Origin: Ornithinimicrobium flavum
GTDB lineage: Bacteria > Actinomycetota > Actinomycetes > Actinomycetales > Dermatophilaceae
Assembly: GCF_004526345.1 (NCBI RefSeq)
Contig: NZ_CP038213.1
Coordinates: forward strand, 3,100,001 to 3,164,000
Reading direction: 5' to 3'
DNA: 64,000 nt
The notes below the pieces were generated by a model. That model did not search any database and had not been told where the DNA came from. It was given only the letters and a program-made list of their open reading frames with translations. The translations under genes were made by a program, and so were the position numbers. Shown in pieces: positions 43,665 through 63,795 of the stretch. The stretch's first letter is position 1; each line of letters starts with the position of its first letter.

Positions 43665-43673
43665 GTCCGACTC

Positions 43674-43694
43674 GCGGCAAAGTAGTGCGTTCGA
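43674..43694 (+). repeat. Dispersed cassette-type repeat, copy 1
   Basis: GCGGCA (43674-43679), seven bases, then GCGTTCGA (43687-43694). The 20 bases from CGGCA on are identical to the copy at 63137. It sits 10 bases after the stop of the 77-residue ORF and just beyond the 3' end of the DUF6994 gene. Confidence 0.75.
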
Positions 43695-43714
43695 GTTGGC
43701 GGGGCGGCTTCGGT

Positions 43715-44453
43715 CTAGAGGCCGAGCTGCAGAATGCGCTCGTTCCGCGCGCGCACGAATCTGATGCTGTTCGCACGGAAAGTTGCGTACTCCAGAGGGG
43801 TCGCGGCGTAGGCGGGGAGGGGAAAGTCGGTGACGACGTCCGTTCAGCAATGACCAGACGCCGCCACGGTCCGGGGTAACGAGGTCGTCGAGCAGGAAGA
43901 ACCTGACGTATGTGTCGAAGTCGCCGAACAGGGGGAAGAAGTCGCCGTAGTAGTTGAGCCGGTGCGCCAGCGGGCTGTCGAGCCCGGGGTCGACGTAGTG
44001 TCGGCGGATGCACTCCAGGGTGAGGTCGAACCGGTCGGCGATCTGCCGGTGCACCCCGCGGGCCTGGTTGATGGTCTGACCCGTCTGTCCCTCGTCGTTA
44101 CGAGGGAACAGGACATACCCGCCGAGCGTGGAAGCGAGTCGGAAGAATCCGTCGGTGTCCTGCTCGATCTCGGCCACGAGGTCCGGCGTGAAGCGGGATG
44201 TCCACCCGGCTGTCGACCAGGTCGGGATGATCCCGTCGCTACCCAGCCTGAACGCGGTCCCGTCCGCTGTGCGCAGTCTGATGCCGTACGCGTAGTCGTA
44301 GGTCACCGCGATCTCGAACGGTCCCACACCCTCAACGGGGCGGGTGCAGAGAGCCTGATGCCACAGGTAGAGCCGTTCACATGTCTGGTCTGGGTCCCCG
44401 CCACCCTCGTAGTAGCTCGCGAAGTCCAAATCCGGGTCGATCCCTGCGCGCAC
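43715..44453 (-). pseudogene. DUF6994 family protein, frameshifted near the 3' end
   Basis: The main frame contains DLDFASYYEGGGDPDQTCER, IIPTWSTAGWTSRF, LGGYVLFPRN, INQARGVHRQIADRFDLTLE and CIRRHYVDPGLDSPLAHRLN, all DUF6994 hallmarks. After RFFLLDDLVTPDRGGVW the frame degenerates, while the expected ending (DFPLPAYAATPLEYATFRAN, IRFVRARNERILQLGL, stop at 43715) is one base out of frame; the shift lies around 43,820-43,870. Likely GTG start at 44453. Function of the family unknown. Confidence 0.65.
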
Positions 44454-44576
44454 CCATCCATCTTGCCCAACACCGTACCCACGTGGGAGGCCGTCGTCCG
44501 GCTCCGTGAGCGTGCGGGTCAGAGCGCCGCTACGGAGTCGAGGAATACGACTTCCGTGCCTGAGTAGTGTGAGGGT

Positions 44577-45065
44577 GTGCGCGAGGACGAGCTGCTGACT
44601 GTCAAGCAGGTCGGGACCGAACTGGGCATGCCCTTCACGCGAGTGCGCAGCCTGATCAGCAAAGGCAGGCTCAAAGCGGTCCTGATGCCCGCTGGGGCGG
44701 CAACATGGAGGGTGTCCCGAGCCGACCTGCGGCGGTACACCGAAGAAGTCGCGCGGGAGGATCGCGACCGTCGACGCCGCGCTCGGGACAAGGCGCTGAG
44801 TCAACTCACCGCCTCCTGGGATCGCCTGTCGGACGACGAACGCAAGCATCTCGAGACAGTCCTCCCGGTCGAGATCTTCCGGCCACTTGCTGACGCATCT
44901 CGTCCACACTGCATCCGTCGCCCTGAGGCGTTGAACGCTTTATGCACGGCGTATGGGAACCGCACGGACGCCGGGATGGAGGAGCTCGCGATGGACATGC
45001 CCCAGGACCTGTTGTGGGCAGTGGCACGCGTTCGCGCGGCGCTGCGCGAAGCTGAGGAGTCCTAG
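44577..45065 (+). CDS. Excisionase/MerR-like helix-turn-helix protein
   Basis: 162 residues. An HTH_17-like N-terminus (LLTVKQVGTELGMPFTRVRS, LISKGRLKAV, WRVSRADLRRYTEE) is followed by a highly charged helix and a helical C-terminal domain with Cys residues (RPHCIRRPEALNALCTAYGN). GTG 44577 follows TAGTGT by 5 bases, suggesting leaderless transcription. It could regulate neighbouring accessory genes or act as a recombination directionality factor. Confidence 0.6.
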   Translation: MREDELLTVKQVGTELGMPFTRVRSLISKGRLKAVLMPAGAATWRVSRADLRRYTEEVAREDRDRRRRARDKALSQLTASWDRLSDDERKHLETVLPVEIFRPLADASRPHCIRRPEALNALCTAYGNRTDAGMEELAMDMPQDLLWAVARVRAALREAEES

Positions 45066-45221
45066 GCGTACGCAGCGCCGGCCGCGGTGCGGCGGACCGG
45101 ACGGGTTGCCGCAGGGTGCTGCTGGCCCGTCGCTAACCTCTCGCAGAAATCACGGGTACGGAGCAATCCGTCAGGAATGATGGGACGACGGCCCGGGCTG
45201 ACGAAACCACTAGGAGCTCCC

Positions 45222-45674
45222 ATGGATGACCTTGTTGCAGCAGCAGAGGGGCTGATCGCCCCCGCAGCTGCCCTGTTGGGGGTAGTCCTGGGGGCAACCC
45301 TGTCGGGACGCCGAGAGCACCGTCAGTGGTTGAGAGAGCGTCGGTTCGAGGCCTACTCAGACGTCAACTTGGCCGCGCGAACGGTGCTCTGGCGTGGAGA
45401 CGAAATCGGTCGTGACTCGGCAGAGCCAGACCTGGAAGCGCAGATTGCGAAAGTGCGTGCAGCGATGTTTGATCTCCGCCAAGCCGTAGCAACGGTCGAG
45501 ATCATCGGGACCGTCACGGGGATCAAGGTCGCCCGCAGCCTGAAGGACGCGTCAGCTGCTCTGTATCGGTATCTCAGCGAGCTGAAGGGCCCTCCCGAGG
45601 ACGATGCCATCGCGATCCAGCAGGCTCGGGCGGCTCTAGGCAAGTACCAGGAAGCAATGCGGGACGAGTTGTAG
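45222..45674 (+). CDS. Small membrane-anchored helical protein
   Basis: 150 residues. One N-terminal transmembrane helix (LIAPAAALLGVVLGATLSG, about 11-29), then a basic stop-transfer (RREHRQWLRERR) and long cytoplasmic helices. The layout (single helix, then R-x-x-R and helical bundle) is frequent among small accessory-island proteins of unknown role. GGAG precedes ATG 45222 by 6 bases. No family recognised. Confidence 0.55.
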   Translation: MDDLVAAAEGLIAPAAALLGVVLGATLSGRREHRQWLRERRFEAYSDVNLAARTVLWRGDEIGRDSAEPDLEAQIAKVRAAMFDLRQAVATVEIIGTVTGIKVARSLKDASAALYRYLSELKGPPEDDAIAIQQARAALGKYQEAMRDEL

Positions 45675-45787
45675 CCGGCACGGGCAGGCCAGGAGATCTG
45701 GCTGTGGGTCTGCCATTGCGGTGCTCCTTCTCACCCTCCCGGGAGGTCGAGCGTGACCATCACCTTGGCCCGTCACCGTCCCGATGC

Positions 45788-45842
45788 GCGGCAAGACCGG
45801 ACGAGCGTAGCCGTCCTCCACGCGGCAGTTCAGTGCGTCGAG
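45788..45842 (+). repeat. Dispersed cassette-type repeat, copy 2 (full form)
   Basis: GCGGCA (45788), the hairpin GGACGAGCGTAGCCGTCC (45799-45816), a second GCGGCA (45822), then N7 and GCGTCGAG (45835). The right core contains the stop codon of the small leftward ORF 45830-46006. Confidence 0.8.
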
Positions 45843-46006
45843 TGTCCGTCTGAGATGCCCTGATGCCAAGCGGTGTGTCGTGACTGGGACTCGTAGGCAA
45901 CGAGGGCGCCGCACTGCTGGCACACGGGCATGCTGCCTCTGTCATTGCGACTGTACCCAGACTTCAACTCAGCTCGGGTCAGTCCGAGATACTCTCGAAT
46001 GCTCAT
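45830..46006 (-). CDS. Small zinc-finger-like protein
   Basis: 58 residues: MSIREYLGLTRAELKSGYSR, then VCQQCGALVAYES and SRHTAWHQG. The C-x2-C and H-x3-H spacing suggests a small zinc-bound fold. Its 3' end lies inside the dispersed repeat at 45788-45842. Family unknown; existence is supported by the zinc-ligand pattern more than by a ribosome-binding site. Confidence 0.45.
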   Translation of the reverse strand: MSIREYLGLTRAELKSGYSRNDRGSMPVCQQCGALVAYESQSRHTAWHQGISDGHSTH

Positions 46007-46163
46007 GGGACCACCGTAAGCGCTAGGGGGCTCGCCAGCTTTCACAGCCATAGAGAAGGATCGGCCCGAGAGGTCCGATAGCCCGCGCGGCCAGCGGCAT
46101 GAGAGTGAGACGGGTGCGGCCTTGGGGGTCAGCCGTTGGCCGTCGGTAAGTATGGTGCTAGGC

Positions 46164-47114
46164 GTGCGAGTTCCTGAGGTTGTGGACTATGCCGCCTTCC
46201 TGCCCGCCGCTTGGGGTGAGCGGGTGGATTACGCTCCCGAGCAGGACCGGTGGGAATGGCACGGCCACGACGTTCACGTCTACCGCCGCCGCAGCCCCGA
46301 AGCGCGGGTCCGGGTCATCGTCGTGCATGGTGCCGGAGGAAACAGCAGCGCCTTGTGGCCCATTGCCTCTCTACTGCCGCCGGAGCAGTTCGACCTGTCA
46401 GCCGTGGATCTGCCCCTGTACGGCAAGACGGTATCGCCGGACCCGTCCTCGGTGCGGTACCAGCACTGGGTCGACATGCTCTGTGACTTCGTGGCTGCTG
46501 AGGACGACGGGAGACCGCTGCTCCTTCTGGGCGCCAGCGTGGGAGGCATGCTCGCCTATGAGGTCGCCGCACGCTGCGGGCGTGTTGCGGTCGTCGTGGC
46601 CACATGCCTGCTCGACCCTCGCGACCGGCGTGTCCAGCGGGTGCTGACCAGGTTCGGCCCTGCAGGTGTGCTCGCCGGGCCTTTAGCGAGGCGGCTTCCT
46701 GACAGGCTGTCGGGGCTGCGGGTGCCCATGTCGTGGGTAGCCGCGCTGGACAAGATGAGCCGCAACGCCGGACTGTCGAAGCTCTGCGCCAGCGACCCCC
46801 GGGGCGGAGGGGCACACGTGCCTCTTGGCTTTCTCGCCTCCTACATGACGTACCAACACGTCCAGCCCGAGCAGATGCGCACCCCCGTCATTCTCGCGCA
46901 CCCGGACAAGGATGCCTGGACGCCCCTGGAGGTGAGCATCCGATGGTTCCAAAGAATTGCAGGTCCGACCGAACTGGTCAGGCTGCGTGGCTGCGGCCAC
47001 TTCCCCATAGAAGAGCCCGGACTCTCCAGCCTCCTAGGCAGACTCACAGGCCTGGCACCGGACATCGAGACGGCAATCGAGCGCGCGACGGGCAGCCCTC
47101 CCAACTCGCGCTGA
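46164..47114 (+). CDS. Alpha/beta-hydrolase
   Basis: 316 residues. VIVVHGAGGNSSALWPIASL provides the oxyanion loop, LLLLGASVGGMLAYEVAARC the nucleophile Ser in G-A-S-V-G, LAHPDKDAWTPLEV the acid, and LRGCGHFPIEEPG the catalytic His. All are in the order of serine esterases/lipases. GTG 46164 is preferred because TATGGT lies 7 bases upstream (leaderless pattern); upstream in-frame ATG 46152 is possible. A dispersed repeat starts 16 bases after the stop, and the stop itself lies in a short inverted match to the repeat's right core. Confidence 0.75.
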   Translation: MRVPEVVDYAAFLPAAWGERVDYAPEQDRWEWHGHDVHVYRRRSPEARVRVIVVHGAGGNSSALWPIASLLPPEQFDLSAVDLPLYGKTVSPDPSSVRYQHWVDMLCDFVAAEDDGRPLLLLGASVGGMLAYEVAARCGRVAVVVATCLLDPRDRRVQRVLTRFGPAGVLAGPLARRLPDRLSGLRVPMSWVAALDKMSRNAGLSKLCASDPRGGGAHVPLGFLASYMTYQHVQPEQMRTPVILAHPDKDAWTPLEVSIRWFQRIAGPTELVRLRGCGHFPIEEPGLSSLLGRLTGLAPDIETAIERATGSPPNSR

Positions 47115-47130
47115 GCCCGGATCCCCCGTC

Positions 47131-47186
47131 GCGGCATGATCGGACGAGCGTAGTCGTCCTCAGCGCGGCAGTACCGCGCGTTCGCG
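47131..47186 (+). repeat. Dispersed cassette-type repeat, copy 3 (full form)
   Basis: GCGGCATGATCGGACGAGCG (47131-47150) continues through the hairpin into a second GCGGCA (47165), N7, and GCGTTCG (47178). AACTCGCGC at 47103-47111, over the end of the hydrolase gene, is a partial reverse complement of GCGCGTT, so the unit may fold as a longer stem. Confidence 0.85.
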
Positions 47187-47214
47187 ACTCGGCCTGTAAG
47201 AGAGACTCAACCGC

Positions 47215-47673
47215 ATGCTGATCACTCCTCTCCCGTCCGAGCTGGAACACGATGCGGTACAGCTGTGGCGCGACTGCGGACTGACCCGTCCGTGGAACGA
47301 TCCAGGCGCCGATCTGGGGCGTGCCCTCGAGGGCCCGTCGTCCACGGTTCTCGCGGCGGTGACGGACGGGCAGCTTCTCGGCACGGTGATGGCGGGGCAG
47401 GACGGTCATCGTGGCTGGGTGTACTACCTGGCCGTCCAGCCCGGCCATCGTGAAGCCGGGATTGGGCGTGCCCTGATGAACGCTGCTGAGTCATGGCTAC
47501 GCGAGCAGGGCATACCAAAGCTGCAGCTCATGGTGCGTGCTGACAACACTGCCGTCATCAAGTTCTACGAACGGCTGGGCTATGTGGATCAACGGGTCGC
47601 TGTCCTTGGTCGATTCCTCGACGAGGAGCTACAAGCGCTACGTGAACAGAACTCGTCGGAGCGATTCCGCTAG
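47215..47673 (+). CDS. GNAT acetyltransferase (YpeA-like)
   Basis: 152 residues. The acetyl-CoA site is VQPGHREAGIGRALMNAAES (the Q/R-x-x-G-x-G/A pattern), with GWVYYLAV as the central strand and NTAVIKFYERLGYVDQRVAV typical at the C-terminus. DCGLTRPWNDPGADLGRALE and GTVMAGQDGHRG closely match E. coli YpeA. Substrate unknown. It directly follows a repeat copy by 28 bases, a cassette-like position. Confidence 0.85.
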   Translation: MLITPLPSELEHDAVQLWRDCGLTRPWNDPGADLGRALEGPSSTVLAAVTDGQLLGTVMAGQDGHRGWVYYLAVQPGHREAGIGRALMNAAESWLREQGIPKLQLMVRADNTAVIKFYERLGYVDQRVAVLGRFLDEELQALREQNSSERFR

Positions 47674-47763
47674 GACCGCAGGGCAAGGACGAAGCCCGGC
47701 CACCAGAAGCGACCAGCGGCAGTTGCGGGCGTTCGCCACGAGCGCCGTGAGAACATCTGAGGC

Positions 47764-48224: not shown

Positions 48225-48231
48225 GCGGCAT
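48225..48231 (+). repeat. Left half of the IS110-split dispersed repeat (copy 4)
   Basis: GCGGCAT here and ATGATCGGACGAGCG at 51321 join to give GCGGCATGATCGGACGAGCG, identical to copy 3. The 3,089 bases between them are the IS110 element plus its nested IS256. Confidence 0.75.
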
Positions 48232-48268
48232 AGGAAGGCGTTGTAGCGCTGGGGTCTGGACGTGAGGA

Positions 48269-48323
48269 ACGTCCTCCTGATGCGCTTGTCGGGCTTGGTA
48301 TCCCATCGCCTTCAGGAGGACGT
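48269..48323 (+). promoter_or_regulatory. Hairpin hiding the ribosome-binding site of the IS110 transposase
   Basis: ACGTCCTCCTGA (48269-48280) and TCAGGAGGACGT (48312-48323) form a perfect 12-bp stem with a 31-base loop. The right arm contains the AGGAGG that should initiate the ATG at 48328. It may limit translation when transcribed from outside, and/or be part of an IS110 bridge RNA. Confidence 0.7.
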
Positions 48324-48327
48324 CCCA

Positions 48328-49677
48328 ATGTCTAACCGTAGTGGTGTCTCGCGTGGTGACCGGAACCGGAACGCCCGGCTGGCCCGCCTCAGGGAAGCAG
48401 TCCCAGTCGGTCACGCGATCGTGGGGATCGACCTGGCCGACCGCAAGCAGATGGTCGTCGTGTGCGACCACGACTCCCGGGTACTGGCGCGGCGCACCTT
48501 CCGGTGCAAGGCCTGGGACCTCGGCTCCGCTCTGGACTGGGCGGCCGGCCACGCCGCGCGGCACGGGTTCGCCGGGGTGACCGTCGCGTGCGAGCCGACC
48601 GGACACCGGTGGCGGATCCTGGGCCAGCTCGCTGCTAACCGGGGCATGAGCTGCGTGTGCGTGCAACCGACGATCTCCTCCTGGGCGCGGAAGTCCGAGG
48701 ACCTGACCTTCGACAAGACCGACGACAAGGACGCCGTCCTCATCGCCCGGCTGGTCGGGCAGCTGCGTTGCTACCTTCCCGAACCGGTCGATGAGACCTG
48801 GGGCCGGCTGCGGCACCTGGGCACCCGCCGCGAACAGCTCCTGGACGAGCACGTCGCGTGCGTGCAGCAGTTGCGTGACCTGCTCGAGTGCGTCTGGCCC
48901 GCCGTCCTGACCGCCGCCGCGCAACCGTTCAAGTCCACCACCTGGGTCGCCGCGCTTAGCGTGATCCTGCGCCGCGACGGCGGTGACCTGAACCGTACCC
49001 GCCGCCTCGGCGCGGCCCGGTTCGAACGCCTCGTCCGCACCGAGATGACCCGCCGCGGGAAGGCCCGCCCGTGCCTGCGGATCGTGCGCAAGGTCTACAT
49101 CGCCTTGGCCGACCGTGCCGGTGTCCTGGACCACCGTGCCGGTGCACTGGAGCGGGCTGAGTGGGTGCTGACCGACTGGGACACCGCCCGGGCCCAGCAG
49201 GTCGACGTCGAGACCCGCATGGTCACCGTCCTCGACGAGCTTGAGCTCACCGACCTGGTGACCACCATCCCCGGCCTGTCCGCGGTCGGCGCCGCCGCGA
49301 TCCTGGCCGAGACCGGCGACCTGACCCGGTTCACCTCCGCCCGTGCCGTGGTCAAGCACGCCGGCCTCGCCCCGCGGGAGCGGATGTCCGGCACGTTCAC
49401 CGGCAAGGCCCGCCTGACCGGCGCCGGCCGACCCGGCCTGCGCACTGCGGCATGGCGGGCGGTATGGGGCTGCCTGCAGACGAACAAGGTCTACGCCGCC
49501 CGCTACCGGCATCTGACCACCCGCGAGAAGAACAAGCTCACGGCGACCCAAGCCCAGACGATCATCGCTGCCGCGATCCTGCGCCAGCTGCACGCCGTCG
49601 TCGTCCACCGCCAAGCCTGGGACCCCGCCCGGGCCACCGGCACCACCAAGACCCAGGGGCCGCTCGTGGCCGCCTGA
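48328..49677 (+). CDS. IS110-family transposase
   Basis: 449 residues. The N-terminal RuvC-like DEDD domain starts HAIVGIDLADRKQMVVVCDH and includes VACEPTGHRW and KTDDKDAVLIARL. The C-terminal transposase_20 domain has LVTTIPGLSAVGAAAILAET, FTSARAVVKHAGLAPRERMS and the serine region GAGRPGLRTAAWRAVWG. The start is ATG 48328 after AGGAGG, not the upstream GTG at 48262. The frame is intact. Guidance by a bridge RNA is known for the family. Confidence 0.93.
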   Translation: MSNRSGVSRGDRNRNARLARLREAVPVGHAIVGIDLADRKQMVVVCDHDSRVLARRTFRCKAWDLGSALDWAAGHAARHGFAGVTVACEPTGHRWRILGQLAANRGMSCVCVQPTISSWARKSEDLTFDKTDDKDAVLIARLVGQLRCYLPEPVDETWGRLRHLGTRREQLLDEHVACVQQLRDLLECVWPAVLTAAAQPFKSTTWVAALSVILRRDGGDLNRTRRLGAARFERLVRTEMTRRGKARPCLRIVRKVYIALADRAGVLDHRAGALERAEWVLTDWDTARAQQVDVETRMVTVLDELELTDLVTTIPGLSAVGAAAILAETGDLTRFTSARAVVKHAGLAPRERMSGTFTGKARLTGAGRPGLRTAAWRAVWGCLQTNKVYAARYRHLTTREKNKLTATQAQTIIAAAILRQLHAVVVHRQAWDPARATGTTKTQGPLVAA

Positions 49678-49893
49678 CCCACCGACCTCGCGCGAGGTGT
49701 TCGCGCGTCACCAGCAGGGCCGGGGCGAGCCTTCCGCGGCATTGAGAACCCTCACCGGTATCTCCACGGTCATCAAGGGCCGCCCCGGCCCGTCGTCAAC
49801 GAACCCGATCACACGCTGTCGAGCCACCAAGCTCCATTACCGCTATGCAGGGACGACGACGGGCCCAGGGCACCCGGACCCCTTGACGTAGAA

Positions 49894-51300: not shown

Positions 51301-51320
51301 ACGTAGAACGCCTCACGCTG

Positions 51321-51355
51321 ATGATCGGACGAGCGTAGCCGTCCTCAGCGCGGCA
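51321..51355 (+). repeat. Right half of dispersed repeat copy 4
   Basis: ATGATCGG, then the hairpin GGACGAGCGTAGCCGTCC, ending at a second GCGGCA (51350-51355). The expected tail is cut off at 51356 by the two-recombinase element, whose far side (55733 onward) begins CAAGCAGAAGAGTGC. Confidence 0.8.
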
Positions 51356-51383: not shown

Positions 51384-52676
51384 TCATGATGCTTCGCCGT
51401 TCTCGAGGTTGTTGAGGAGTTTGCCGAAGAGCTGGGCTCGGTGGGTCTGGCCCTTGGCGTGGGCGTCGTCGTGCTGGGCCTGGAGGGTGGGGCGGAAGGC
51501 GATGGTGGTCTGGAAGAAGGTGCAGGTCTCGCAGATGGACTCGAAGGCGCAGTCGAGCTCGGGGGGTCTGGTGCAGTGGCCGTTGCCGAGCATTCGGGAG
51601 TGCTCGCGACGGAGGCGGGCCATGTTGGGTCCGAGGGCGTCGGCGGGCAGGTGGGCGGGGTCGGTGTAGAGGGCGTCGACCTTGTCGGTGACGGCGAAGT
51701 ACTCCTCGGCGACGGTGCGGTTGGCGATGCGGGCGTAGCGCAGGGTCATGTCCATCGAGGAGTGGCCTAGCATCGCGGCGATGGCTTCCAGGGACATGCC
51801 GCGGTTGATGGCCTGGGTGGCCAGGGTGTGGCGCAGCTGGTGGGGGTGAATGTGGGGCAGCCCGGCGGCGGCGCCGGCCTTGTTGATCATCCGGGTGACG
51901 GTGTGCCGGTCCAGCGCCCGGCCGTTCTCTCTCGGGAGCAGCAGCGGGTGGGTGGGGTCGACGTGGGTGGCCCGGTAGTCCTGGATGAGGGTGAGCACGT
52001 GCGGGTGCAGGGGCAGGTATCGGTCCTGGTGCAGCTTGCCGACCGGGACGTGCAGCCAGGGTCCGGCGCCGATGTGCACGAGCGCGTCGGCGGGCAGGGC
52101 GGTGTACTCGCTGACCCGCAGACCGGTGCGCAGCAGCACCTCCACGGTCACGCGAAGCAGCATCCGGGGCTGGGCCTGGGCGGCGCGTAGCAGCCGGGCG
52201 GCGCTCGGGTCATCCAGTGCTTTGGGCAGGGGCCGGTCCTGGCGGGGCAGGTCCCCGGAGAACATCGGCACCCGGGCCGGGGCGTCGTCCCAGTCCCACT
52301 CGCCGATCCGGATGAAGAACATCCGTAGCGTGCCGAGCCGGCCGGCGATGGTGGCCAGGCCCAGCGGGGTCCCGCCGCGGCCGGGGCGGGCGGCCAGCCA
52401 CGGCTTGTAGGCCTCGATGGTGGACCTGTCGATGTCGGCCACGCAGGTCAGGGTCGGGGTGTGGGTGAGCAGGTAGGTGGCGAAGCAGCGCAGCGACTGG
52501 TCGGCGCCGTTGACGCTGCCCGGGCGCAGCACGCAGGCGATCTGGGCCAGGTAGGCCCGCATGGTGGCCGCGACCTGAGGCAGCTCGGCGGCGACCTGGT
52601 CCCAGGTCGCGACCGGCGCGGCGCCGCCGCGCTGGTCCTGGGCGGGGTCGAACCGGACCGGCAGGGTGGTGCTCAT
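51384..52676 (-). CDS. Tyrosine recombinase (second gene of the pair)
   Basis: 430 residues. SAM-like N-terminus (about 40-150), then the catalytic domain: Arg in LLRTGLRVSEYTALPADAL, H-x-x-R in HPHQLRHTLATQAINRG, and LGHSSMDMTLRYARIANRTV with the nucleophile Tyr. A C-terminal extension with three Cys (DCAFESICETCTFFQTT) may bind metal. Its start overlaps the upstream recombinase stop by 4 bases. Intact. Confidence 0.9.
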   Translation of the reverse strand: MSTTLPVRFDPAQDQRGGAAPVATWDQVAAELPQVAATMRAYLAQIACVLRPGSVNGADQSLRCFATYLLTHTPTLTCVADIDRSTIEAYKPWLAARPGRGGTPLGLATIAGRLGTLRMFFIRIGEWDWDDAPARVPMFSGDLPRQDRPLPKALDDPSAARLLRAAQAQPRMLLRVTVEVLLRTGLRVSEYTALPADALVHIGAGPWLHVPVGKLHQDRYLPLHPHVLTLIQDYRATHVDPTHPLLLPRENGRALDRHTVTRMINKAGAAAGLPHIHPHQLRHTLATQAINRGMSLEAIAAMLGHSSMDMTLRYARIANRTVAEEYFAVTDKVDALYTDPAHLPADALGPNMARLRREHSRMLGNGHCTRPPELDCAFESICETCTFFQTTIAFRPTLQAQHDDAHAKGQTHRAQLFGKLLNNLENGEAS

Positions 52677-53560
52677 CGCAGCCTCCGGAACCCCGGCAGC
52701 GCCGGCCGTTCACCGGCGCCCGGCGGCGGTGTCGCGTGCACGCCGGGGACGCCGGCGAAGACCTGGGCGTCGATGACCTCGGCGGCCTTGCGGTACTGGG
52801 AGGCCAGCCAGTCGTCGGCCAGGTGCAGGTAGATCCGGGTGGACTCGATCGAGGCGTGCCCGGCCTGTGCCTGGACGGCCTCCAGGGCCATCCCGGCCTC
52901 CCGCAGCCGGGTCAGGCAGGTGTGCCGCAGCTCGTGGCAGGTGCCGTGGGACAGGCCCGCACGGGCCCGGGCACCGGCCAGGACCTGATCGATACCGCGC
53001 ACGGTCAGCGGCTGCCCGCGGGTGGGTCCCTTGAGCACGACGAACAACCGGTCGGTCGCGGCGTCGGCGGTTCGCTCGATGGCCAGGTAGTCGGCGACCG
53101 CGGTGAAGAACCTGGCCGATACGGGCACGATGCGTTGCCGTCCGCCCTTGCCCTCGGCGATGAACACCCGCCGTTCGGCGGCCCGCAGGTCCTGCAGGCG
53201 CAGGCCCAGGACCTCGCAGCGGCGCAGCCCGCCGAGCACCATCGCCGCGACCATGGCCCGGTCCCGGTGGGTGCGCAGGGCGCCGGTGAGGGCGTCGACC
53301 TCGGCTGGGGCCAGGATCCGCGGCAGGGACCGGACCCGCCTGGTCAACGGCACGCCCTGGGAGGGGCGGGATCTCTCCCGGCGGGTCGGCAGCCCCCGGG
53401 GCACCGGGTTGGTGACCACGTCCCCGCGAACCTGCAAGAAGGCGTAGAACCCGGAGATCGTGGATACCCGCCGGGCGATCGTGGCCGGCCCCACCCCGCC
53501 TCCGCCGTCGGTGGGCAGACCCTGGACCACGCCGGCAGGACGGCCGGTGCGCTGGGCAGT

Positions 53561-53676
53561 GATGAAGGCGAGCACGTCGGCCGGGACCACCTCGGCCGGG
53601 TCCTTGCCGAGCACCGACAGGAAGATCCTCAGGTCATACGCCGCGGCCAGGACCGTGTTCGGCCGGCACCGCCCGG
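53561..53676. repeat. Left copy of a 115/116-bp direct repeat around the IS1634-like element
   Basis: Identical, base for base as read by eye, to 55441-55556. It encodes the RCRPNTVLAAAYDL to VLAFI part of the recombinase on the minus strand. It appears to be an unusually long target duplication. Confidence 0.88.
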
Positions 53677-55440
53677 CCTGAGTTTGGACAGGTAGTGCGT
53701 CCTCGCAGGGCCTCGGGCTGCTGACCTGCGGTGTTGTGTTTCGGGTGGTGGTGTTCACGCACTAATCGGATGCGTCTAGCCTCCTGGTGTGGCGTTCATC
53801 AGGCGGGTGCCGACCAAGTCGGGGGCGACGGCGTGCAGATCGCCGAGTACGCCCAGGGCGGCAGCGGATCGTCAAGACCTTGGGTCTGCGCACACCGAGG
53901 CCGAGCTTGGGGTGCTGCTGGCCCGGGCCCGGGAGCTACTCGAGAACCCTGCGCAGGGCACTCTGGAGCTGGACGTGGAACCAGCGCCGGTGGCGGCGTC
54001 GCTGGTGCGACCGGCTCCTGAACCGGCGCTGTTCGACACGCCCGCCCCAGCGTCGCCGAAGGTCCGGGATGCTTCTGGCCGGGTGGTCGGCACGGACAGC
54101 CGGGTGCTCTTCGAGGCTCTGACCGCGGTGTACGCCAGCTGGGGTTCGACGTGGTCGGTGATGAGGTGTTCGCCGATCTGGTGATCGCCCGGGTGGTGGA
54201 GCGACCTCGCTGCTGGATGTCGCGCGGGTGCTGGGCGACCTGGGCCAAGAAGCGGCGAGCTACAAGACGATGGGGCGCACCCTGGCCCGCGCGCAGGAAC
54301 GCGGGTACCGCGACCTGGTCGCCGGGGCCTGCTTCGAGCACGCGGTCAGCACCGGGGACGTCTCGCTGATCATGTACGACGTCACGACCCTGTACTTCGA
54401 GGCCGAGAAGGAGGACGACCTGCGCAAGGTCGGCTACTCCAAGGAACGCAGGGTGGACCCACAGATCGTGGTCGGCCTGCTGGTCGACGGGGTGGGTTCC
54501 CGCTGGAGATCGGCTGCTTCGAGGGAGACAAGGCAGAAACGGCCACGATCGTGCCGATCGTCAAGGCCTTCCAGGCCCGGCACTCCGTGGCCGACATGGT
54601 CGTCGTCGCCGACGCCGGGATGCTCTCTGCGGACAACCTCAAAGAACTGGACGCGGCCAACCTGCGGTTCATCGTCGGCTCGAGGATGACCAAGGCACCG
54701 ATCGACCTGGCCTCCCACTTCCGCTGGCACGGCGATGCGTTCACCGATGGCCAGGTCATCGACACCATCACCCCGCGGGTGTCCACCACGCGCGCTCGGG
54801 CCGTTAACGACGTCAAGAAGCGGCCGAGCCGGTGTGGGACCCGCCGAGCACGAGGTCTCCTGGCGGGCCGTGTGGGCCTACTCGGCCAAACGGGCTGCCC
54901 GGGATACGAAGACCCTGACCCTCCAGGAGAACAAGGCCAAAGCCGTCGTCGCCGGCGAGAAAGCCGCCCGCACCCCGCGGTTCGTGAAGAAGGGCCAGGG
55001 CGCCCCCAGGCTGGACGAGGCGGCCCTGGCCAGGGCCCGCCGCCTGGTCGGTCTGAAGGGCTATGTCACCAACATCCCGGCCAGCATCATGCCCGCCCGC
55101 GAGGTCATCCTCCTACCACGACCTCTGGCAGGTCGAGACCTCCTTCGGATGTCCAAGACAGACCTTCGCGCCCGCCCACTGTTCGCCAGAAAACGCGACG
55201 CGATCGAGGCCCACCTGACCATCGTCTTCACCGCCCTGGCCATCTCACGCGAGATCCAGAACCGAACCGGCCTGGCCATCCGCAACGTGATCCGCCAGCT
55301 CCGGCCGCTGCGCTCGGCCACCATCGCGATCAACGCCAGCCGGCAGACCTTCCCGCCCCAGATCCCCGCCGACAAGCAGGCCCTCCTCGACGCCCTCCAT
55401 CACCGGTGAGGTCACGCACTAACGAAATGACCAAACTCAG
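53677..55440. mobile_element. IS1634-like (IS4 group) insertion sequence
   Basis: About 1,764 bp with short inverted ends (CCTGAGTTTGGACA at the left, TGACCAAACTCAG at the right) and GTGCGT/ACGCAC just inside both. Flanked by a 115-bp direct repeat; long, variable duplications are known for IS1634. The transposase is degenerate. Confidence 0.8.
53789..55409 (+). pseudogene. IS1634-family transposase with several frameshifts
   Basis: Family sequence can be followed across frames: VAFIRRVPTKSGATA, then (shifted) VQIAEYAQG and GRQRIVKTLG, back to SAHTEAELGVLLARARELLE, a further shift near 54,180 before VARVLGDLGQEAASYKTMGR, DVSLIMYDVTTLYFEAEKED, another near 54,500, VADMVVVADAGMLSADNLKE, another near 54,830, and a last one near 55,110 before FRMSKTDLRARPLFA-type residues and the end at 55409. 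At least five indels, so it is almost certainly inactive, unless the raw sequence is poor here. Confidence 0.85.
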
Positions 55441-55556
55441 GATGAAGGCGAGCACGTCGGCCGGGACCACCTCGGCCGGGTCCTTGCCGAGCACCGACAG
55501 GAAGATCCTCAGGTCATACGCCGCGGCCAGGACCGTGTTCGGCCGGCACCGCCCGG
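55441..55556. repeat. Right copy of the 115/116-bp direct repeat
   Basis: Matches 53561-53676 exactly. This copy remains joined to the recombinase gene's own 5' end (55557-55686). Confidence 0.88.
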
Positions 55557-56237: not shown

Positions 56238-56301
56238 CGTGTGGGCGAATGCGCGTCGACCGTCGGGATGACGGTCAGTCAAAGCACCAGCCGTCCTCGG
56301 C

Positions 56302-56328
56302 GCGGCAAAGGCGGATGGATGCGTCGAG
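56302..56328 (+). repeat. Dispersed cassette-type repeat, copy 5 (variant)
   Basis: AGCCGTCCTCGGCGCGGCA (from 56289) retains the right side of the hairpin and the GCGGCA core (56302-56307), followed by AAAGGCGGATGGAT and GCGTCGAG (spacer six bases longer than usual). It lies 64 bases after the acetyltransferase stop. Confidence 0.7.
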
Positions 56329-56381
56329 CCCGAGACGAGCGCTCGGAGGGTGGGGAGAGGGGTTAGACCGTGAACAGCCAC

Positions 56382-57317
56382 TTATGCCTTCGCCCCGACA
56401 GGTCGGGTGTCACCCAGTTTCACTTCGAGCAGGTGACCACCGCTGGGGCCGTTGGAGGGTGAAGGGGTAGCAGGGCCAGTCCCAGTCCAGGGGGTGGCGG
56501 GGAGGTCGGTGAGGTGGTGCAGGGCGGACTGCAGGAGCCGGGGGAGGGTGTCGGGGTCGACCTGATGGTGCGGTGCCGTGGGGTATTGGAGGTTGAGGTG
56601 GTCGAGGTTGATGAGCACGTGCGGGTGTGGCAGTTCGGTGGCCCAGCCGGACTCTGGGGGGAGCCGCTGGTGCAGGGCACCGTCTTCTTGCCATTCGGGT
56701 GCCTGGCTGAACAGCATTCGCCGGCCCGATCTGGTGAGGACCGATCCGGGTGGGTGGGCGGCGATGAGGTCTGCCTCGTTGATCCACTCTGCGGCCGGGC
56801 GGAGGACCAGCGGCTCCTCTTCCTCGGGCGCGAGGAGGCGGTCGTCCCACAGGCCGGTCTCGAAAGGCAATGGGTCACCCTGGGCGATGCGTTGTTCCTC
56901 GAAGCCGAGATCGACGACCCGCAGGGGGTGGCCGTGGGACCAGCAGGACCAGCGCGCGGCGCACAGCATCTGGCTCCACCAGACCTCGGCGACCTCCTCG
57001 GCCGCCGCCCGCAGCAGGTCCAGCAGGGGGGTAGTGATGCCGGGCCCGGGCGGGAAGGTGAACAGCAGCCGGCCGGTCCCGGCCCCGGCGGCGACCCCGA
57101 CGTGAGGCCGCTGGTCGGCTGCGCCCAGTCGCAGCAGGTCGGCTGCCGGCCAGGTCTCACAAAGGCCCAGTGGGGCCATGTTCAGCCTCGCGCCCTCAGC
57201 GATGACCTCGACGATGGCAGCCATAGTGAGGTGCGGTGCGCCAGACCAAGAGAGCAACGCATAGCTCTCCACGTCGGGCGTGGGCACGTCGTCGCTCGGG
57301 TCAGGGGCGTGGTCCAT
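56382..57317 (-). CDS. Hypothetical protein
   Basis: 311 residues, soluble. An acidic N-terminus, a mixed alpha/beta middle (LLFTFPPGPGITTPLLDLLR, WWSQMLCAARWSCWSHGHPL) and a Pro/His-rich C-terminus (PHPHVLINLDHLNLQYPTAP). Codon use is GC-rich and the frame is long and undisturbed, so it is probably real. No family recognised. It and the next two genes run leftward, against the repeat orientation. Confidence 0.55.
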   Translation of the reverse strand: MDHAPDPSDDVPTPDVESYALLSWSGAPHLTMAAIVEVIAEGARLNMAPLGLCETWPAADLLRLGAADQRPHVGVAAGAGTGRLLFTFPPGPGITTPLLDLLRAAAEEVAEVWWSQMLCAARWSCWSHGHPLRVVDLGFEEQRIAQGDPLPFETGLWDDRLLAPEEEEPLVLRPAAEWINEADLIAAHPPGSVLTRSGRRMLFSQAPEWQEDGALHQRLPPESGWATELPHPHVLINLDHLNLQYPTAPHHQVDPDTLPRLLQSALHHLTDLPATPWTGTGPATPSPSNGPSGGHLLEVKLGDTRPVGAKA

Positions 57318-57405
57318 GACTGGATGCTATGTCGGTAGCGAGATGGGGTTGAGGCGCGGCTCATGACTCGCGACCGGCGGCATGTCCGGATGAGTCTGGG
57401 ATGGT

Positions 57406-57933
57406 CTACGAGGCCGTCAGGGGAAGCTCTGGGGTGCTCGGCCGAGGGTCACTGCGCAGGCGTCCATACGTCAGCACATCTACGCGCTCACCACCGACGA
57501 GGAACTTCTCCCGCTCGATGCCCTCCTGCACGAACCCTGCGGCGCGCGCAACGGCCCCGGAGGCGGGATTGTTGGCGCGATGCCCCAGCTCGAGACGCTC
57601 GATACCTCCGTCGCGCAGCGCCCAGTTGGCCACGGTCGCCGCGGCGCGCTTGGTCAGGCCGCGATGGCGGTGCGAATCGTGAGTCCAATACCAGAACCAG
57701 CCCAGTCGGTTTTCGTGGTCGACATTGAGCGCCACGACCCCAAGGAGCGAGCCGTCGGCATCCAAGGCGAAGGCGAAGGGGTTCTCGGAGAGATGCCGCG
57801 CATAGGTGGCGGCAGAGGCGAGATCGCGGACGTCACCTTGTCGCGACATGTCCTCCGCCTTGAAGGCTTCGAGGATCGCTTCGTCGTCGCTCGGCAGGAC
57901 GTGGCGGAGCACCGCGGGAGGTCTCGTAGTCAT
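57406..57933 (-). CDS. RimJ/RimL-type GNAT acetyltransferase
   Basis: 175 residues from ATG 57933 (MTTRPPAVLRHVLPSDDEAI). The core is LLGVVALNVDHENRLGWFWY, with HDSHRHRGLTKRAAATVANW as the acetyl-CoA loop region and LGHRANNPASGAVARAAGFV, the latter very characteristic of Rim-type enzymes. A start 11 codons upstream (57966) is possible. Substrate unknown; such genes are common in accessory cassettes. Confidence 0.85.
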   Translation of the reverse strand: MTTRPPAVLRHVLPSDDEAILEAFKAEDMSRQGDVRDLASAATYARHLSENPFAFALDADGSLLGVVALNVDHENRLGWFWYWTHDSHRHRGLTKRAAATVANWALRDGGIERLELGHRANNPASGAVARAAGFVQEGIEREKFLVGGERVDVLTYGRLRSDPRPSTPELPLTAS

Positions 57934-57977
57934 CGGTTCTGAGGTTAACAAGCCCGCGGTCGACACAAGCTCTGCTC

Positions 57978-57994
57978 GCGGCAGAAGCGGATGC
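57978..57994 (+). repeat. Dispersed cassette-type repeat, copy 6 (short)
   Basis: GCGGCAGAAGCGGATG resembles the core and spacer of copy 5 (GCGGCAAAGGCGGATG). The GCGTT element is not preserved. It lies between two leftward genes. Confidence 0.45.
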
Positions 57995-58027
57995 TCGTGT
58001 CACCCTCTCCACACAGCGCGCGTGTCT

Positions 58028-58306
58028 CTAGGCCTCGTCGTACTTAGGGTCGAATAGTTCATCGGGCACCGGCGGCCATGCGGACTCATCCCAGGGCACC
58101 TCTTCGTACCCGTCCTGACGGTAGTCCGCCACCATGAGGTCTTTCGCCTCCAGTGCCTTGTCCTCGTTGTCGGCGACGCTTCGGGTCATCCAGCCCTTGC
58201 GACCCGTCCCTCCAAGCTGTAGGAGCGTGCGTCCGCGGACGCGAAGCATCACGAACTGCGTCCGAAAGAGTCGCTTTCGTTCCACACGAGTCATCACGTC
58301 AGTCAC
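58028..58306 (-). CDS. Small hypothetical protein
   Basis: 92 residues: a basic N-terminal half with beta-strand character (RLFRTQFVMLRVRGRTLLQL, GGTGRKGWMTRSVADNEDKA) and an acidic Pro/Trp C-terminus (VPWDESAWPPVPDELFDPKY). No signal or membrane segment, no family known. Placed between two repeat copies. Confidence 0.5.
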   Translation of the reverse strand: MTDVMTRVERKRLFRTQFVMLRVRGRTLLQLGGTGRKGWMTRSVADNEDKALEAKDLMVADYRQDGYEEVPWDESAWPPVPDELFDPKYDEA

Positions 58307-58359
58307 GCCATGACCCTATCCGACGGACGGTAAGTTGGCCGCCGTTGCGCCTAGGGGGT

Positions 58360-58414
58360 GCGGCAAAAAATCGGACGAGCGTAGCCGTCCTCCACGCGGC
58401 AATACAGTGAACCC
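58360..58414 (+). repeat. Dispersed cassette-type repeat, copy 7 (full form)
   Basis: GCGGCA (58360), the hairpin GGACGAGCGTAGCCGTCC (58373-58390), a second GCGGCA (58396-58401), then a diverged tail (ATACAGTGAACC). From TCGGACGAG to CCTCCACGCGGCA it matches copy 2 almost base for base. Confidence 0.85.
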
Positions 58415-60539: not shown

Positions 60540-60860
60540 TGTAAACAGACCACGCCGCCACGGCGCCCATCCCGACCAGGGCCCCGCCCGTCGCCCATTC
60601 TTCTACGGGTGCCCTGGCAGCAAGCGCCGCGAGTGCGCCCATGCCGCTTCCTGCTGCGGCCGCGCCGAAAAGCACGAGGATGAAGCTCCAAGGGACCCGG
60701 CCGCCGGTCTCCTCGCCCTTCAAGTAGAACTGCGCCGGGGACCGGACCAGAACCCACCCGAGGAACCGGCGGACAGGCCCCCTTGCGCCTCTCGCCCGAT
60801 GTTTCACCGGCGCATCATCCCAATCCAAGCGAGCAGCAACAAACAGCGGCCTGCCGGAGT

Positions 60861-60878
60861 GCGGCAGAGTCGGGCGTT
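60861..60878 (+). repeat. Dispersed cassette-type repeat, copy 8 (core only)
   Basis: GCGGCA (60861), seven bases, then GCGTT (60874-60878), the same 13-base phase as copies 1-3. It lies between the start of the DUF3592-like gene and the kinase gene. Short, so less certain. Confidence 0.45.
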
Positions 60879-61170
60879 TCCTTCGGCGACTGACGGGCCA
60901 GCGCCGGGTCCGTTCGCGATACTGGGAACCGTGGACACTACTGCTCTGCAGGCGCGGCTGGAGCATGTCTTATGGATTGGTGGCGGTTCCGGCTCGGGCA
61001 AGTCCACGGTGGCTCGTCGACTGGCTGAGCAGGACGGGTTGCATCTGTACTCCACCGACGAGGCGATGGGCAGGCACGCTGACCGGCTGGGCCCGGCCCA
61101 GGCTCCGCTCCTGGCCGCGTTCATGACGATGGACATGGACCAACGCTGGTGTCACCGCTCGACTGATATG

Positions 61171-62693
61171 TAGGGGTGCCGTGTCAAGTGGGCAGGGTGA
61201 GGCGCCGCCGGGCTAGCTTGCTCGGCGGCGCCTCGTCTCGTTCTCGGGGGGTCCTTGTCCCTTTGCTGCGGCGTGTTCGTCGACGCGTGTCAGTCTGATA
61301 TGGGCGGGTTGGTTACCGCAGGACGGCTCTCCGGCCGGAACGGGTCTCCGCGTCTGAGGTCGAGCGTGGCCGCTTGTGGCGGTTGCTCACAGTCGAATCG
61401 GGAGTCGTTCCTCGCGCTGCATGCGTGTGGGGCGGACGGCGAGAACGGGTCTTGGGGGGTCAGGTCGTGGTGGTCTCCAGCACGGCCAGGGACCAGCACC
61501 AGCCGGCTAGCTCGCGGGCGATCGCGGTGTTGGCCACGGTGTGCTTCTTCTTGTGCTCGGTCAGGGCCTGCCAGCGTCTGTGCAGCCGACGGTTGCCGGC
61601 GTCACCGCGTTCGGCCGCGGCGGCAGGGGCCAGTGCCCACCGGTCCTGCATCGTCTTGCCGGGCTTGTACTGGGCCTTGTGGTGCCAGGCGGCCTCGATC
61701 AGCAGGCGGCGCGCGTGGGGGTTGCCGGCCTTGGTGATCGCTCCCCGGTTCTTGGACTGCCCGGAGGAGTGCTCGGAGGGCACCAGTCCCAGGTAGGCGG
61801 CGATCGTCGATCCGGTGAATCGGTGCCAGTCACCGAGCTCGACGGCCAGGGAGAACGCGGTCAGTGTTGAGATCCCACGCAGGCAGGCCAGCCGACGGGT
61901 CACGGGGGTGAACTCGCTGTCGGCGGCCAGGACCGCGATCTGTCCGTCCAACCTCTTACGCGCCGTGACCAGGTCGGTGGTCCGGGCGTAGTACAGGTCG
62001 AACGCCGCGGCCGTGCCGGCCAGGTCGAAGCGCAGCTGACGCAGCCAGGCGTCGTGCTTGCCCGTCCACGCCTCCCCACCGTTGTACACGTGCCCGTGGC
62101 GCAGCAGCAGCTTGCCCAGGCGGTGCCGGGCGCTCATCAGGTCCCCCCGAACGTCGGCCCGCGCCCGCACCAGGTCGCGTGCGGCCTCCTCGGTCAGTGT
62201 GGGGACCCGCACGCTGATGATCTCCTCCATCCGCAGCAGCCGGGCCAGCAGCAGCGCATCGCGTTTGTCCGTCTTGACCTTGTCCCCGCTGGGCCGGATC
62301 AGTTTGGACGGCGCGGCCACCTCGCACCGGATCCCGGCCGAGGCCAGCGCCCGCGCCAGCCCGTACCCCGTCGGGCCGGCCTCGTAGGTCACCGCGACCG
62401 GACCGTGCCCGGCCTCGACCAGCTGCCGGACCCAGTCCACTACCAGGGGGACCGCCGGCCCGACCGTAGCCTCGATCACCTCCCCGGTAACCGTGTCCAG
62501 CGCTGCCGCCCGCACCGATCGTGCGTGCACGTCCATCCCGATACTTGTACGCTCCGTGAACACCGGGGCCCTCCTACACATGTGGTACCCGAGCAGGCCG
62601 CTCCTACCCGGTTAACCCACGAATCTGTGTCAGGAAGGCCCCGGCCCGCAACCACGACCTCGATGCCGCAGCTACGTCATACCGTCTGAGCAG
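61171..62693. mobile_element. IS110-family element inserted in the kinase gene
   Basis: About 1,523 bp; the limits are inferred from the restored kinase frame (ATG on both sides). One leftward transposase. Non-coding DNA is longer downstream of the gene (61171-61459, 289 bases) than upstream (112 bases), which suggests the IS1111-type layout in which the bridge RNA lies 3' of the transposase gene. Confidence 0.75.
61460..62581 (-). CDS. IS110-family transposase (IS1111-like layout)
   Basis: 373 residues. DEDD domain: SIGMDVHARSVRAAALDTVT, VAVTYEAGPTGYGLARALAS, KTDKRDALLLARLLRMEEII. C-terminal domain: LACLRGISTLTAFSLAVELG, FTGSTIAAYLGLVPSEHSSG and GAITKAGNPHARRLLIEAAW with the catalytic-type serines. 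It is not closely similar to the 449-residue IS110 protein at 48328. Intact. Confidence 0.93.
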   Translation of the reverse strand: MCRRAPVFTERTSIGMDVHARSVRAAALDTVTGEVIEATVGPAVPLVVDWVRQLVEAGHGPVAVTYEAGPTGYGLARALASAGIRCEVAAPSKLIRPSGDKVKTDKRDALLLARLLRMEEIISVRVPTLTEEAARDLVRARADVRGDLMSARHRLGKLLLRHGHVYNGGEAWTGKHDAWLRQLRFDLAGTAAAFDLYYARTTDLVTARKRLDGQIAVLAADSEFTPVTRRLACLRGISTLTAFSLAVELGDWHRFTGSTIAAYLGLVPSEHSSGQSKNRGAITKAGNPHARRLLIEAAWHHKAQYKPGKTMQDRWALAPAAAAERGDAGNRRLHRRWQALTEHKKKHTVANTAIARELAGWCWSLAVLETTTT

Positions 62694-63136
62694 ATGCTGC
62701 AGACGTTTCATTGGTTCGCTGGTGAGGGCTTCGACCTGATCGTCGAGGACCTGCTGGCGATGCCGCGTGAGCCTGTCGTCGTCGAGGGCTTCCGACTCCT
62801 GCCTCGTCTAGTCGCGCCCCTGTCAGCTGCCGGCCGAAGGGTCTGGCTCCTGCCCACTCCGCAGTTCCGCCGAAACGCCTTCGCAGCCCGAGGGTCGCTG
62901 TGGCAGATCGCCGGCAGGACCAGCAATCCGGAGCTGGCGTTGGCGAACCTGCTGGAACGGGACCGGCTGTTCACCGAGCAACTGAGAACGGAGGCCGACG
63001 CGCGGGGGTTGCCGGCCGTCGACGTGGATGACGGGGTAACGACCGAGGAACTCATGACTCGTGTGCGTCAGGCGCTCCAGACATCCCCACCGGACTAACC
63101 GTCGCACCGCCGACGGTCTGAAGTGGCGCGCTCCGC

Positions 63137-63157
63137 GCGGCAAAGTAGTGCGTTCGA
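63137..63157 (+). repeat. Dispersed cassette-type repeat, copy 9
   Basis: GCGGCA, N7, GCGTTCGA, near-identical to copy 1. It is preceded by a GCGCG/CGCGC mini-hairpin (63126-63139). The kinase stop lies in GACTAAC (63093-63099), and GCAC follows shortly, a partial reverse complement of the right core AGTGCGTTCGAC. This resembles the two ends of an integron attC stem. Confidence 0.75.
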
Positions 63158-63196
63158 CCAGTGCGATGTCAGGCCCTGTCTCGCTAGGGTTCCGTC

Positions 63197-63736
63197 ATGA
63201 GGCCGTCGCCGCAGGAAGTCGCGTCCCAGCTGACAAGCATTCTTCGATCGCCTTGGCCGGAAGGCATCGATGACGGTGTCTCATGGCTGCGCTCCATGGG
63301 CATCTCGACAGACACTGCGGAGGAGACACCTTCGGAGGGCAGTGGTCGGTCCTGGGGAATGGCCTCGGTGCCCGGATGGGGTGCGGCTCGGGCAGGGTGG
63401 AGCACGTACCGTGAGCAGTTCGCGGATGTCTTCTGGTTCCTGTGGGACGACCATGGCTGGGACGATGTGCGGGGCGCTGCGGCTGACCTCGCTCAGGCCA
63501 TCACAGACGTTCACGGGGCACCTGAGGAGAGCACCGAGGAGACCACGGGCCACGGGCCCAGCTGGTGGTGGCGTCTGAATGACCACAGCATTGAGGTCTA
63601 CGCCCACAACGGTGCGATCCGGCCAGAAGACTTCCCGGCCGGGCCCGCGGTCGTGCAACTGCATGTCGACCTACGCGCCGTCGCGGAACCTCGTGAGGCC
63701 GAGGCGTGTGAACTGGGTGCTCCTCCAGGGCCCTGA
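63197..63736 (+). CDS. Hypothetical protein, possibly DUF6301-like
   Basis: 179 residues. ATG 63197 (MRPSPQEVASQLTSIL). Helical N-terminus, then REQFADVFWFLWDDHGWDDV, DLAQAITDVHGAP, WWWRLNDHSIEVYAHNGAIR, and a final beta-hairpin (AVVQLHVDLRAV). The pattern of a D-x-F-A helix, a G-x-P turn and a W-x-W-R strand recalls DUF6301 proteins, which occur in actinobacterial accessory loci, but I am not certain. A repeat copy lies 39 bases after the stop. Confidence 0.5.
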   Translation: MRPSPQEVASQLTSILRSPWPEGIDDGVSWLRSMGISTDTAEETPSEGSGRSWGMASVPGWGAARAGWSTYREQFADVFWFLWDDHGWDDVRGAAADLAQAITDVHGAPEESTEETTGHGPSWWWRLNDHSIEVYAHNGAIRPEDFPAGPAVVQLHVDLRAVAEPREAEACELGAPPGP

Positions 63737-63775
63737 CCGACTCCAGCCAGGCGATCGAATGTCGCCAGTCTCATC

Positions 63776-63795
63776 GCGGCCAAGTAGTGCGTCCG
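63776..63795 (+). repeat. Dispersed cassette-type repeat, copy 10
   Basis: GCGGCC-N7-GCGTCCGG, the same phase as the other copies. The upstream gene's stop lies in CTGACCGACT (63733-63742), which mirrors AGTGCGTCCG of the core except for the two central bases. Confidence 0.7.

Follow-up and report, generated by a model that had tools for sequence, protein, structure and literature searches.

Co-oriented GCGGCA-centred sites bound a probable array of mobile gene cassettes in Ornithinimicrobium flavum

Site array and site architecture

We analyzed a 64-kb stretch of the one-contig, 3.71-Mb genome of Ornithinimicrobium flavum (bases 3,100,001-3,164,000, GC content 71%; hereafter the window, numbered from its first base), in which a short repeat in one orientation separates individual accessory genes. 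Comparison with related sequences makes it very probable that the repeats bound gene cassettes that are mobile, and that a site-specific recombination process of the tyrosine-recombinase kind moves them. A sequence-only reading of the window had listed about ten repeat copies on the plus strand; all were present, and the array proved larger than reported, with 17 sites on the plus strand and 0 on the minus strand when the full window was scanned with a position-weight matrix at a threshold of 8. The scored core positions were 41009, 43332, 43674, 45788, 45822, 46094, 47131, 47165, 47716, 48225, 56302, 57377, 57978, 58396, 60861, 63137, and 63776, to which 51350, 58360, and a mutated GCGCCA at 42790 were added by eye. 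The array extends beyond the window to approximately genome position 3,170,226 (locus L024; L and G numbers denote compared loci and compared genomes), and the same genome holds other arrays at 285-311 kb (plus strand) and 351-357 kb (minus strand).

The site has the 26-bp consensus CRNNC-N5-GCGGCA-N5-GKRYG. Sites were initially picked by GCGGCA and a loose right arm, so that the left arm was unselected and the invariance of GCGGCA was partly built in by the search pattern. In 472 kb of partly overlapping loci, the core pattern had 252 matches and its permuted control 7, and the weight matrix (threshold 12, 25 loci) found 235 sites versus 1 in the reversed sequence, its training sites coming from loci that overlap those scored. 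Chance is excluded as the origin of the repeat. At 139 sites that follow a gene, the left arm showed C at -6 (91%), C at -10 (64%), and G at -9 (56%), with no clear conservation upstream of it to -30; the G-K-R-Y-G of the right arm occupies +11 to +15. The sequence-only reading had assigned the longer core GCGGCA-N7-GCGTTCG a common 13-base phase in six copies, a figure that we reduce to four exact copies in the window (43674, 47165, 47716, and 63137). The site is thus an imperfect dyad centred in GCG|GCA, with two 10-bp arms flanking a six-base core. Two arms around a central core are the layout of tyrosine-recombinase core sites on double-stranded DNA, and the cassette site looks like such a core with GCGGCA as the overlap. 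Among 46 loci with at least four sites, some of which overlap, the majority strand held 382 of the 386 sites, and each cassette has a right arm at its start and a left arm at its end.

Cassette exchange and cassette content

One moved cassette is the stretch 57377-57984, which is 99.7% identical to positions 9303-9910 of locus L236 in another species of the genus (G002), the identity running from the G of one GCGGCA to just past the next while both neighbours differ. The hydrolase cassette at 46087-47140 recurs with 99.6% identity in the same L236 locus, ending just after GCGGCA, and with 99.3% identity in L200 of the O. flavum genome, again with different neighbours. To this we add a comparison of junctions, in which 416 sites (exact 120-base duplicates removed) gave 598 pairs that share one flank and differ in the other; excluding pairs with a hairpin unit in the shared flank left 43. 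Identity started or stopped at GCGGCA in 35 of these, ending at +6 to +8 in 17 of the 20 left-shared pairs and starting at 0 to +1 in 18 of the 23 right-shared pairs, and the 43 pairs represent 16 left and 14 right independent flank families. The crossover therefore falls within the GCGGCA core. With the duplicates removed, no pair retained both flanks. A position-based recount of 299 sites with duplicates kept yielded, between genomes, 28 pairs sharing one flank only and 1 sharing both; within genomes the numbers were 11 and 2, the latter being twin contigs of one assembly. Ends of homologous blocks also coincided with sites: for 56 of 256, each of the two loci had a site no more than 15 nt away, compared with 0.24% in shifted controls. 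The moved cassettes and the breakpoints inside GCGGCA support two suggestions of the sequence-only reading, that this is a cassette array and that its sites may form a different recombination-site family. Two apparent cassette gains were discarded. The 1,161-bp difference between L190 and L182 is an insertion (L190 8231-9392) in the CTAG loop of a 39-bp gene-less unit whose L182 copy is uninterrupted, and the case of L092 versus L105 depends on 66 bases located where contigs end.

Of the intervals between sites, 185 measured 200 bp or more, and 46 were shorter than 50 bp. Among 146 cassettes of 250-1600 bp, 110 had one predicted gene, 28 had two, five had three, and three had none. The main gene was sense to the array in 74 cassettes and antisense in 69, a random orientation that makes a common upstream promoter unlikely. 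In integrons, by comparison, cassette genes mostly follow the array.

Among the short intervals are gene-less micro-cassettes. The sequence-only reading had noted a hairpin and a second GCGGCA added to four copies; these do not belong to the site but form a repeat unit of their own, 34 bp long (36 bp at 58360), which in relatives reaches eight tandem copies. Gene-less units of 24, 28, 29, 31, 32, 34, and 39 bp occurred singly or in tandem, the 29-bp kind in a run of nine in L184, with predicted folds of -3.9 to -15.3 kcal/mol. Pairing between the two ends of a unit exceeds that of shuffled ends (longest stem z 7.3 over 44 distinct arm pairs). The micro-cassettes may be carried passively by adjacent cassettes, be products of slippage, or move as single strands.

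Insertion elements also meet these sites. GCGGC followed by TACGTGTTTCATTGA was found 19 times over the compared loci, some of which overlap (for example, L184 16630 and L022 13700). These junctions look as if an insertion element targeted the micro-cassette site, and in L184 a gene for an IS110-family transposase adjoins one of them. Four loci have an IS110-type element that starts precisely at a cassette GCGGCA. The array is a target for these elements and is not explained by them. IS110/IS1111 elements are reported to target attC sites (PMC11187229).

Candidate recombinase and rival explanations

The sequence-only reading described an array without an integrase. The window itself indeed lacks a good candidate for a cassette recombinase, but it holds two other tyrosine recombinase genes (51384-53758), and an intact 309-aa XerD-like recombinase is encoded in the 351-357-kb array of the same genome (L023 14934-15860), antisense to the sites. 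Relatives 79-96% identical to the copy in G002 (L238) occur in L081 of O. tianjinense, as a frameshifted gene in L113 of O. cerasi, and in L308 and L309 of G132, which belongs to a different genus. The candidate thus stands in or at the edge of six arrays in five genomes, antisense to the sites in six of six. L023 is homologous to L081, and L113 to L238, over stretches that stop on one side exactly at GCGGCA, and the recombinase therefore appears to be cassette-borne itself. Its neighbours are BrnT-like genes (below the Pfam cut-off) and HicB or YoeB/YefM genes in the loci scanned; the corresponding parts of L081 and L113 lie within the homologous blocks. Sites adjoin the recombinase in the arrays seen, and none is specific to it, which bears on the question of an attI counterpart.

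The protein matched PF00589 (E 5.1e-26), and candidates for the catalytic residues R, K, HxxR, H/W, and Y of tyrosine recombinases were conserved or nearly so in 42 aligned rows. It resembles XerC and XerD in scoring 122-126 bits against their models and in matching XerD of PDB entry 1a0p (E 6.6e-21); it differs from them in falling below every NCBIfam equivalog cut-off and in being additional to the host XerC and XerD. Against the IntI model it scored 57.8 bits, the cut-off being 265. In a search at the protein level, 6,403 of 8,000 scored candidates reached E <= 1e-40, and the 120 listed matches were 75-95% identical. Two more distant relatives on Pseudonocardia plasmids (38-43% identical) came with one site scoring 11 and none higher, and two viral relatives (28-33%) with no site above 10. 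An AlphaFold model (mean pLDDT 67, pTM 0.48) was too weak for use. We give the 309-aa protein an even chance of being the cassette enzyme.

In the scheme that we propose, the enzyme would bind both 10-bp arms of double-stranded DNA and exchange strands across the six-base overlap GCGGCA, and the hexamer would be invariant because it serves as that overlap. An excised cassette would be a circle that carries one full site, and a tandem, co-oriented array would build up as such circles inserted at any other site. The enzyme, which could equally be or not be the 309-aa XerD-like protein, would in the former case be carried as a cassette with toxin-antitoxin-type genes, and arrays devoid of it would be either relics or served by a different enzyme.

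Several observations weigh against parts of this scheme. Eight of the 43 breakpoints fell outside the core (-11, +14, and +17; -9, -7, -6, -1, and +10), and only 11 of 128 homologous blocks had both ends at sites, the other blocks including transposons. The case for cassette movement is comparative throughout, and excision and circles are predictions of the scheme. DNA units of 24-39 bp are too short to close as double-stranded circles, and the gene-less units of this size are unexplained by the scheme. As for the enzyme, the survey, which covered tyrosine recombinases, showed the candidate with the six arrays but not in four site-rich genomes (G001, G005, G027, and G068), none of whose tyrosine recombinase loci, all of them compared, has a recombinase at least 50% identical; G001 has a remote relative only (35% linkage). 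Because of these absences, we infer the role of the enzyme rather than assert it. The six recombinase loci were chosen for holding sites, which biases the linkage, and L309 has only one site above the threshold of 12.

Other enzymes were also considered. It is unlikely, though the likeliest of the rivals, that another recombinase acts in trans, whether one of the RIT-type pairs, the 371-aa type found in L040, a common 400-aa integrase, or a serine recombinase. The 400-aa type is present in six of six site-rich genomes compared and absent from the site-poor G020, yet it occurs in 79 of 158 genomes of the family, including several site-poor ones. Every one of the five site-rich members of the genus has the L040 type, which adjoins arrays in G001 and G027, and a RIT-type pair lies between window sites (51384-53758). 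However, the L040 type is absent from G068 and resides on a separate, recently spread element of several kb (L232 7637-12466; also L233, L234, and L235) that is 93-99% identical across four species, and in G000, G002, and G005 the same 20-kb stretch has no scored sites. A supposed link of this type to the cassette site was rejected, since the candidate site is below the matrix threshold and appears inside a gene of the separate element. We regard it as improbable that host XerC and XerD recombine the sites without any dedicated enzyme of the array, as with the pdif modules of Acinetobacter plasmids. The pdif sites are approximately 26-28 bp, have a six-base centre, and bound gene modules; in these short, simple sites and in the six-base spacing of dif the likeness lies, and both host proteins were found in seven of seven genomes compared, among them the four site-rich genomes without the candidate. 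Nevertheless, the site-poor G020 also has both, the arms of the cassette site are unlike dif, and a dif-like sequence, found by pattern search and unlike the cassette site, occurs separately, once in each of six genomes and twice in G020 (one with three mismatches). Array sites, moreover, are chromosomal and co-oriented rather than alternating. Given the separate and different dif-like sequence, the reading of the sites as pdif sites was rejected.

A diverged integron remnant, that is, a CALIN with unusual attC sites folded as single strands, was also considered. Integrons, sedentary chromosomal integrons, and CALINs share with this array the tandem, mostly single-gene cassettes (110 of 146), the co-oriented site, mobility with a fixed crossover (35 of 43 breakpoints and recurring cassettes), cassettes that are gene-less or of toxin-antitoxin type, a gene for a tyrosine recombinase that runs antisense to the array, and transposons that target the sites; the hairpin micro-cassettes point the same way. 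The features that define attC are nonetheless missing. Sequence over the stop codons had been read as a reverse complement of the right core, but no upstream complement exceeded chance (n = 175, z -0.4 and 1.0), and nothing was conserved beyond -10. The GTT said to be often kept was present in 39 of 175 right cores, and in gene cassettes the arms showed no covariation at one junction or between two ends (z near 0; n = 177 and 96). Genes lie in both orientations, and the 32 TIGR02249 (IntI) matches in the O. flavum genome included 0 above the cut-off. The site is a 26-bp simple dyad with a GCGGCA centre, unlike a folded attC with GTTRRRY, and the candidate enzyme is XerD-like, not IntI; nor is the array a CALIN in the sense of a true attC cluster without IntI. 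With the IntI, complement, GTT, and orientation tests all negative, we rejected the integron reading, which we consider very improbable. Hardly credible is the proposal that hairpin repeats merely spread between genes while homologous recombination and transposons shuffled the flanks. The 34-bp hairpin unit is strongly conserved and tandem, and many transposons lie within arrays; yet junctions between two genes have just the 26-bp site in common, a length at which homologous recombination is out of the question, and the breakpoints cluster in six bases. The cassette scheme with its double-stranded core site thus remains our preferred account.

Features of the window, distribution, and significance

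The first scored site (40999-41024, plus; GCGGCA at 41009) directly follows an Lsr2 gene (40442-40882). It opens a cassette (41009-42789, plus) for a 539-aa protein lacking a Pfam match (41069-42688, plus), of which 41009-42701 is 90% identical to G001 L195, the homology beginning at the G of GCGGCA in both. The degenerate core GCGCCA (42790-42795, plus) aligns with intact sites in L023 and L193 and starts a cassette (42790-43331, minus) for a nucleotidyltransferase of the aminoglycoside-2''-adenylyltransferase family (42807-43289, minus; PF10706). Copies of this cassette occur in the same genome (99.1% identical in L023 and 92% in L200), in G005 (L193, 99.6%), and in G027 (L182, 89%); at its terminal site (43322-43347, plus; GCGGCA at 43332), L023 and L193 share the left flank and differ in the right. 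The next site (43664-43689, plus; GCGGCA at 43674) begins a cassette (43674-45787) with a DUF6994 gene (PF22507, domain within 43835-44438, minus) and a 195-aa open frame; the DUF6994 frame reads through the site as far as 43437, and the match to G001 L195 (85% identity over 43671-44480) begins at the site. A gene-less 34-bp hairpin micro-cassette (45788-45821, plus) is bounded by GCGGCA at 45788 and 45822. The site at 46084-46109 (plus; GCGGCA at 46094), whose right flank is common to G002 L236, precedes the cassette (46094-47130, plus) for an alpha/beta hydrolase (46122-47114, plus; Abhydrolase_6). Another 34-bp hairpin micro-cassette (47131-47164, plus; GCGGCA at 47131 and 47165) leads to a cassette (47165-47715, plus) for a GNAT acetyltransferase (47215-47673, plus; PF00583), the gene having an 82% identical counterpart in L022, also in this genome, and then to a site at 47706-47731 (plus; GCGGCA at 47716).

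Two of the copies listed earlier, at 48225 and 51321, are reinterpreted: the first is a junction with an IS110-family element (48225-49888, plus; end abutting GCGGCA at 48225), and the second is a truncated hairpin micro-cassette followed by GCGGCA at 51350 (51321-51355, plus), adjoining a Mutator-family transposase gene. Equal IS110 junctions are found in L318, L307, and L102; the element is a user of the array as a target, outside the mechanism. The two adjacent tyrosine recombinase genes at 51384-53758, which we take to be RIT-like, are followed by a duplicated element, and related pairs occur in L024, L186, and L187. A 1.77-kb transposon-like element lies between a 115-base direct duplication (53561-55556), and a further copy, in L025 (5521-7297), is flanked by a duplication of 41 bases. 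IS1549-type elements are known for target duplications that are long and variable.

Beyond it, the site at 56292-56317 (plus; GCGGCA at 56302) begins a cassette (56302-57376, minus) for a 311-aa protein with no Pfam match (56382-57317, minus). The GNAT acetyltransferase cassette (57377-57977, minus; gene 57406-57966, minus) has GCGGCA at 57377 and 57978, and the next (57978-58359, minus) encodes a 92-aa protein with no Pfam match (58028-58306, minus). A gene-less 36-bp hairpin micro-cassette (58360-58395, plus) is bounded by GCGGCA at 58360 and 58396. Further sites lie at 60851-60876 (plus; GCGGCA at 60861) and 63127-63152 (plus; GCGGCA at 63137), the latter starting a cassette (63137-63775, plus) for a 179-aa protein (63197-63736, plus) with a weak DUF6301 match below the cut-off. 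A diverged site (63766-63791, plus; GCGGCC at 63776) follows, and the array goes on past the window. The cargo in the window includes acetyltransferases, a nucleotidyltransferase, a hydrolase, a kinase-like fragment, and unknowns. An Rfam scan of the window returned tRNA and Ms_IGR-7 only. A tyrosine recombinase remnant (29894-30289, minus) adjoins tRNA-Lys (29781-29854), and because the last 43 bases of this tRNA recur approximately 49.5 kb away (L024 19280-19322), the array may lie within a genomic island inserted there.

The exact hairpin was found in 19 of 58 relatives, all of the same genus, whereas a hairpin scan of genome contigs gave 43 stretches in seven genera (Ornithinimicrobium, Serinicoccus, Janibacter, Knoellia, Intrasporangium, Humibacillus, and Terrabacter). 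In a survey of 158 genomes of the family, pattern counts set against control counts per strand reached 57 (G002) and 56 (G027), with controls of 0-10 per strand; in most genomes outside the genus they did not stand out from the control. The hairpin unit was absent from the viral contigs, plasmids, and phages searched, and two window cassettes had no match among plasmids; a looser site pattern picked out five viral stretches, three with matrix scores of 15, 20, and 27 and two under 10.

Searches of open-licence PubMed Central listed no description of a comparable system. Actinobacteria are reported to be without complete integrons (PMC9024848). We tentatively suggest, at somewhat less than even confidence, that the arrays represent a second cassette system, one that is independent of integrons and has a double-strand core site and an XerD-like recombinase of its own, possibly widespread in Actinobacteria in view of the 6,403 protein matches, and with hairpin micro-cassettes that maybe move as single strands. 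If this is true, gene-by-gene cassette evolution, of which integrons are the textbook example, would have arisen more than once. A pool of mobile accessory genes, among them acetyltransferases, nucleotidyltransferases, toxin-antitoxins, and many unknowns, would have been missed by tools built on attC and IntI, and a recombination site not used before, together with a new enzyme should its role be confirmed, would become available for moving genes in GC-rich bacteria.

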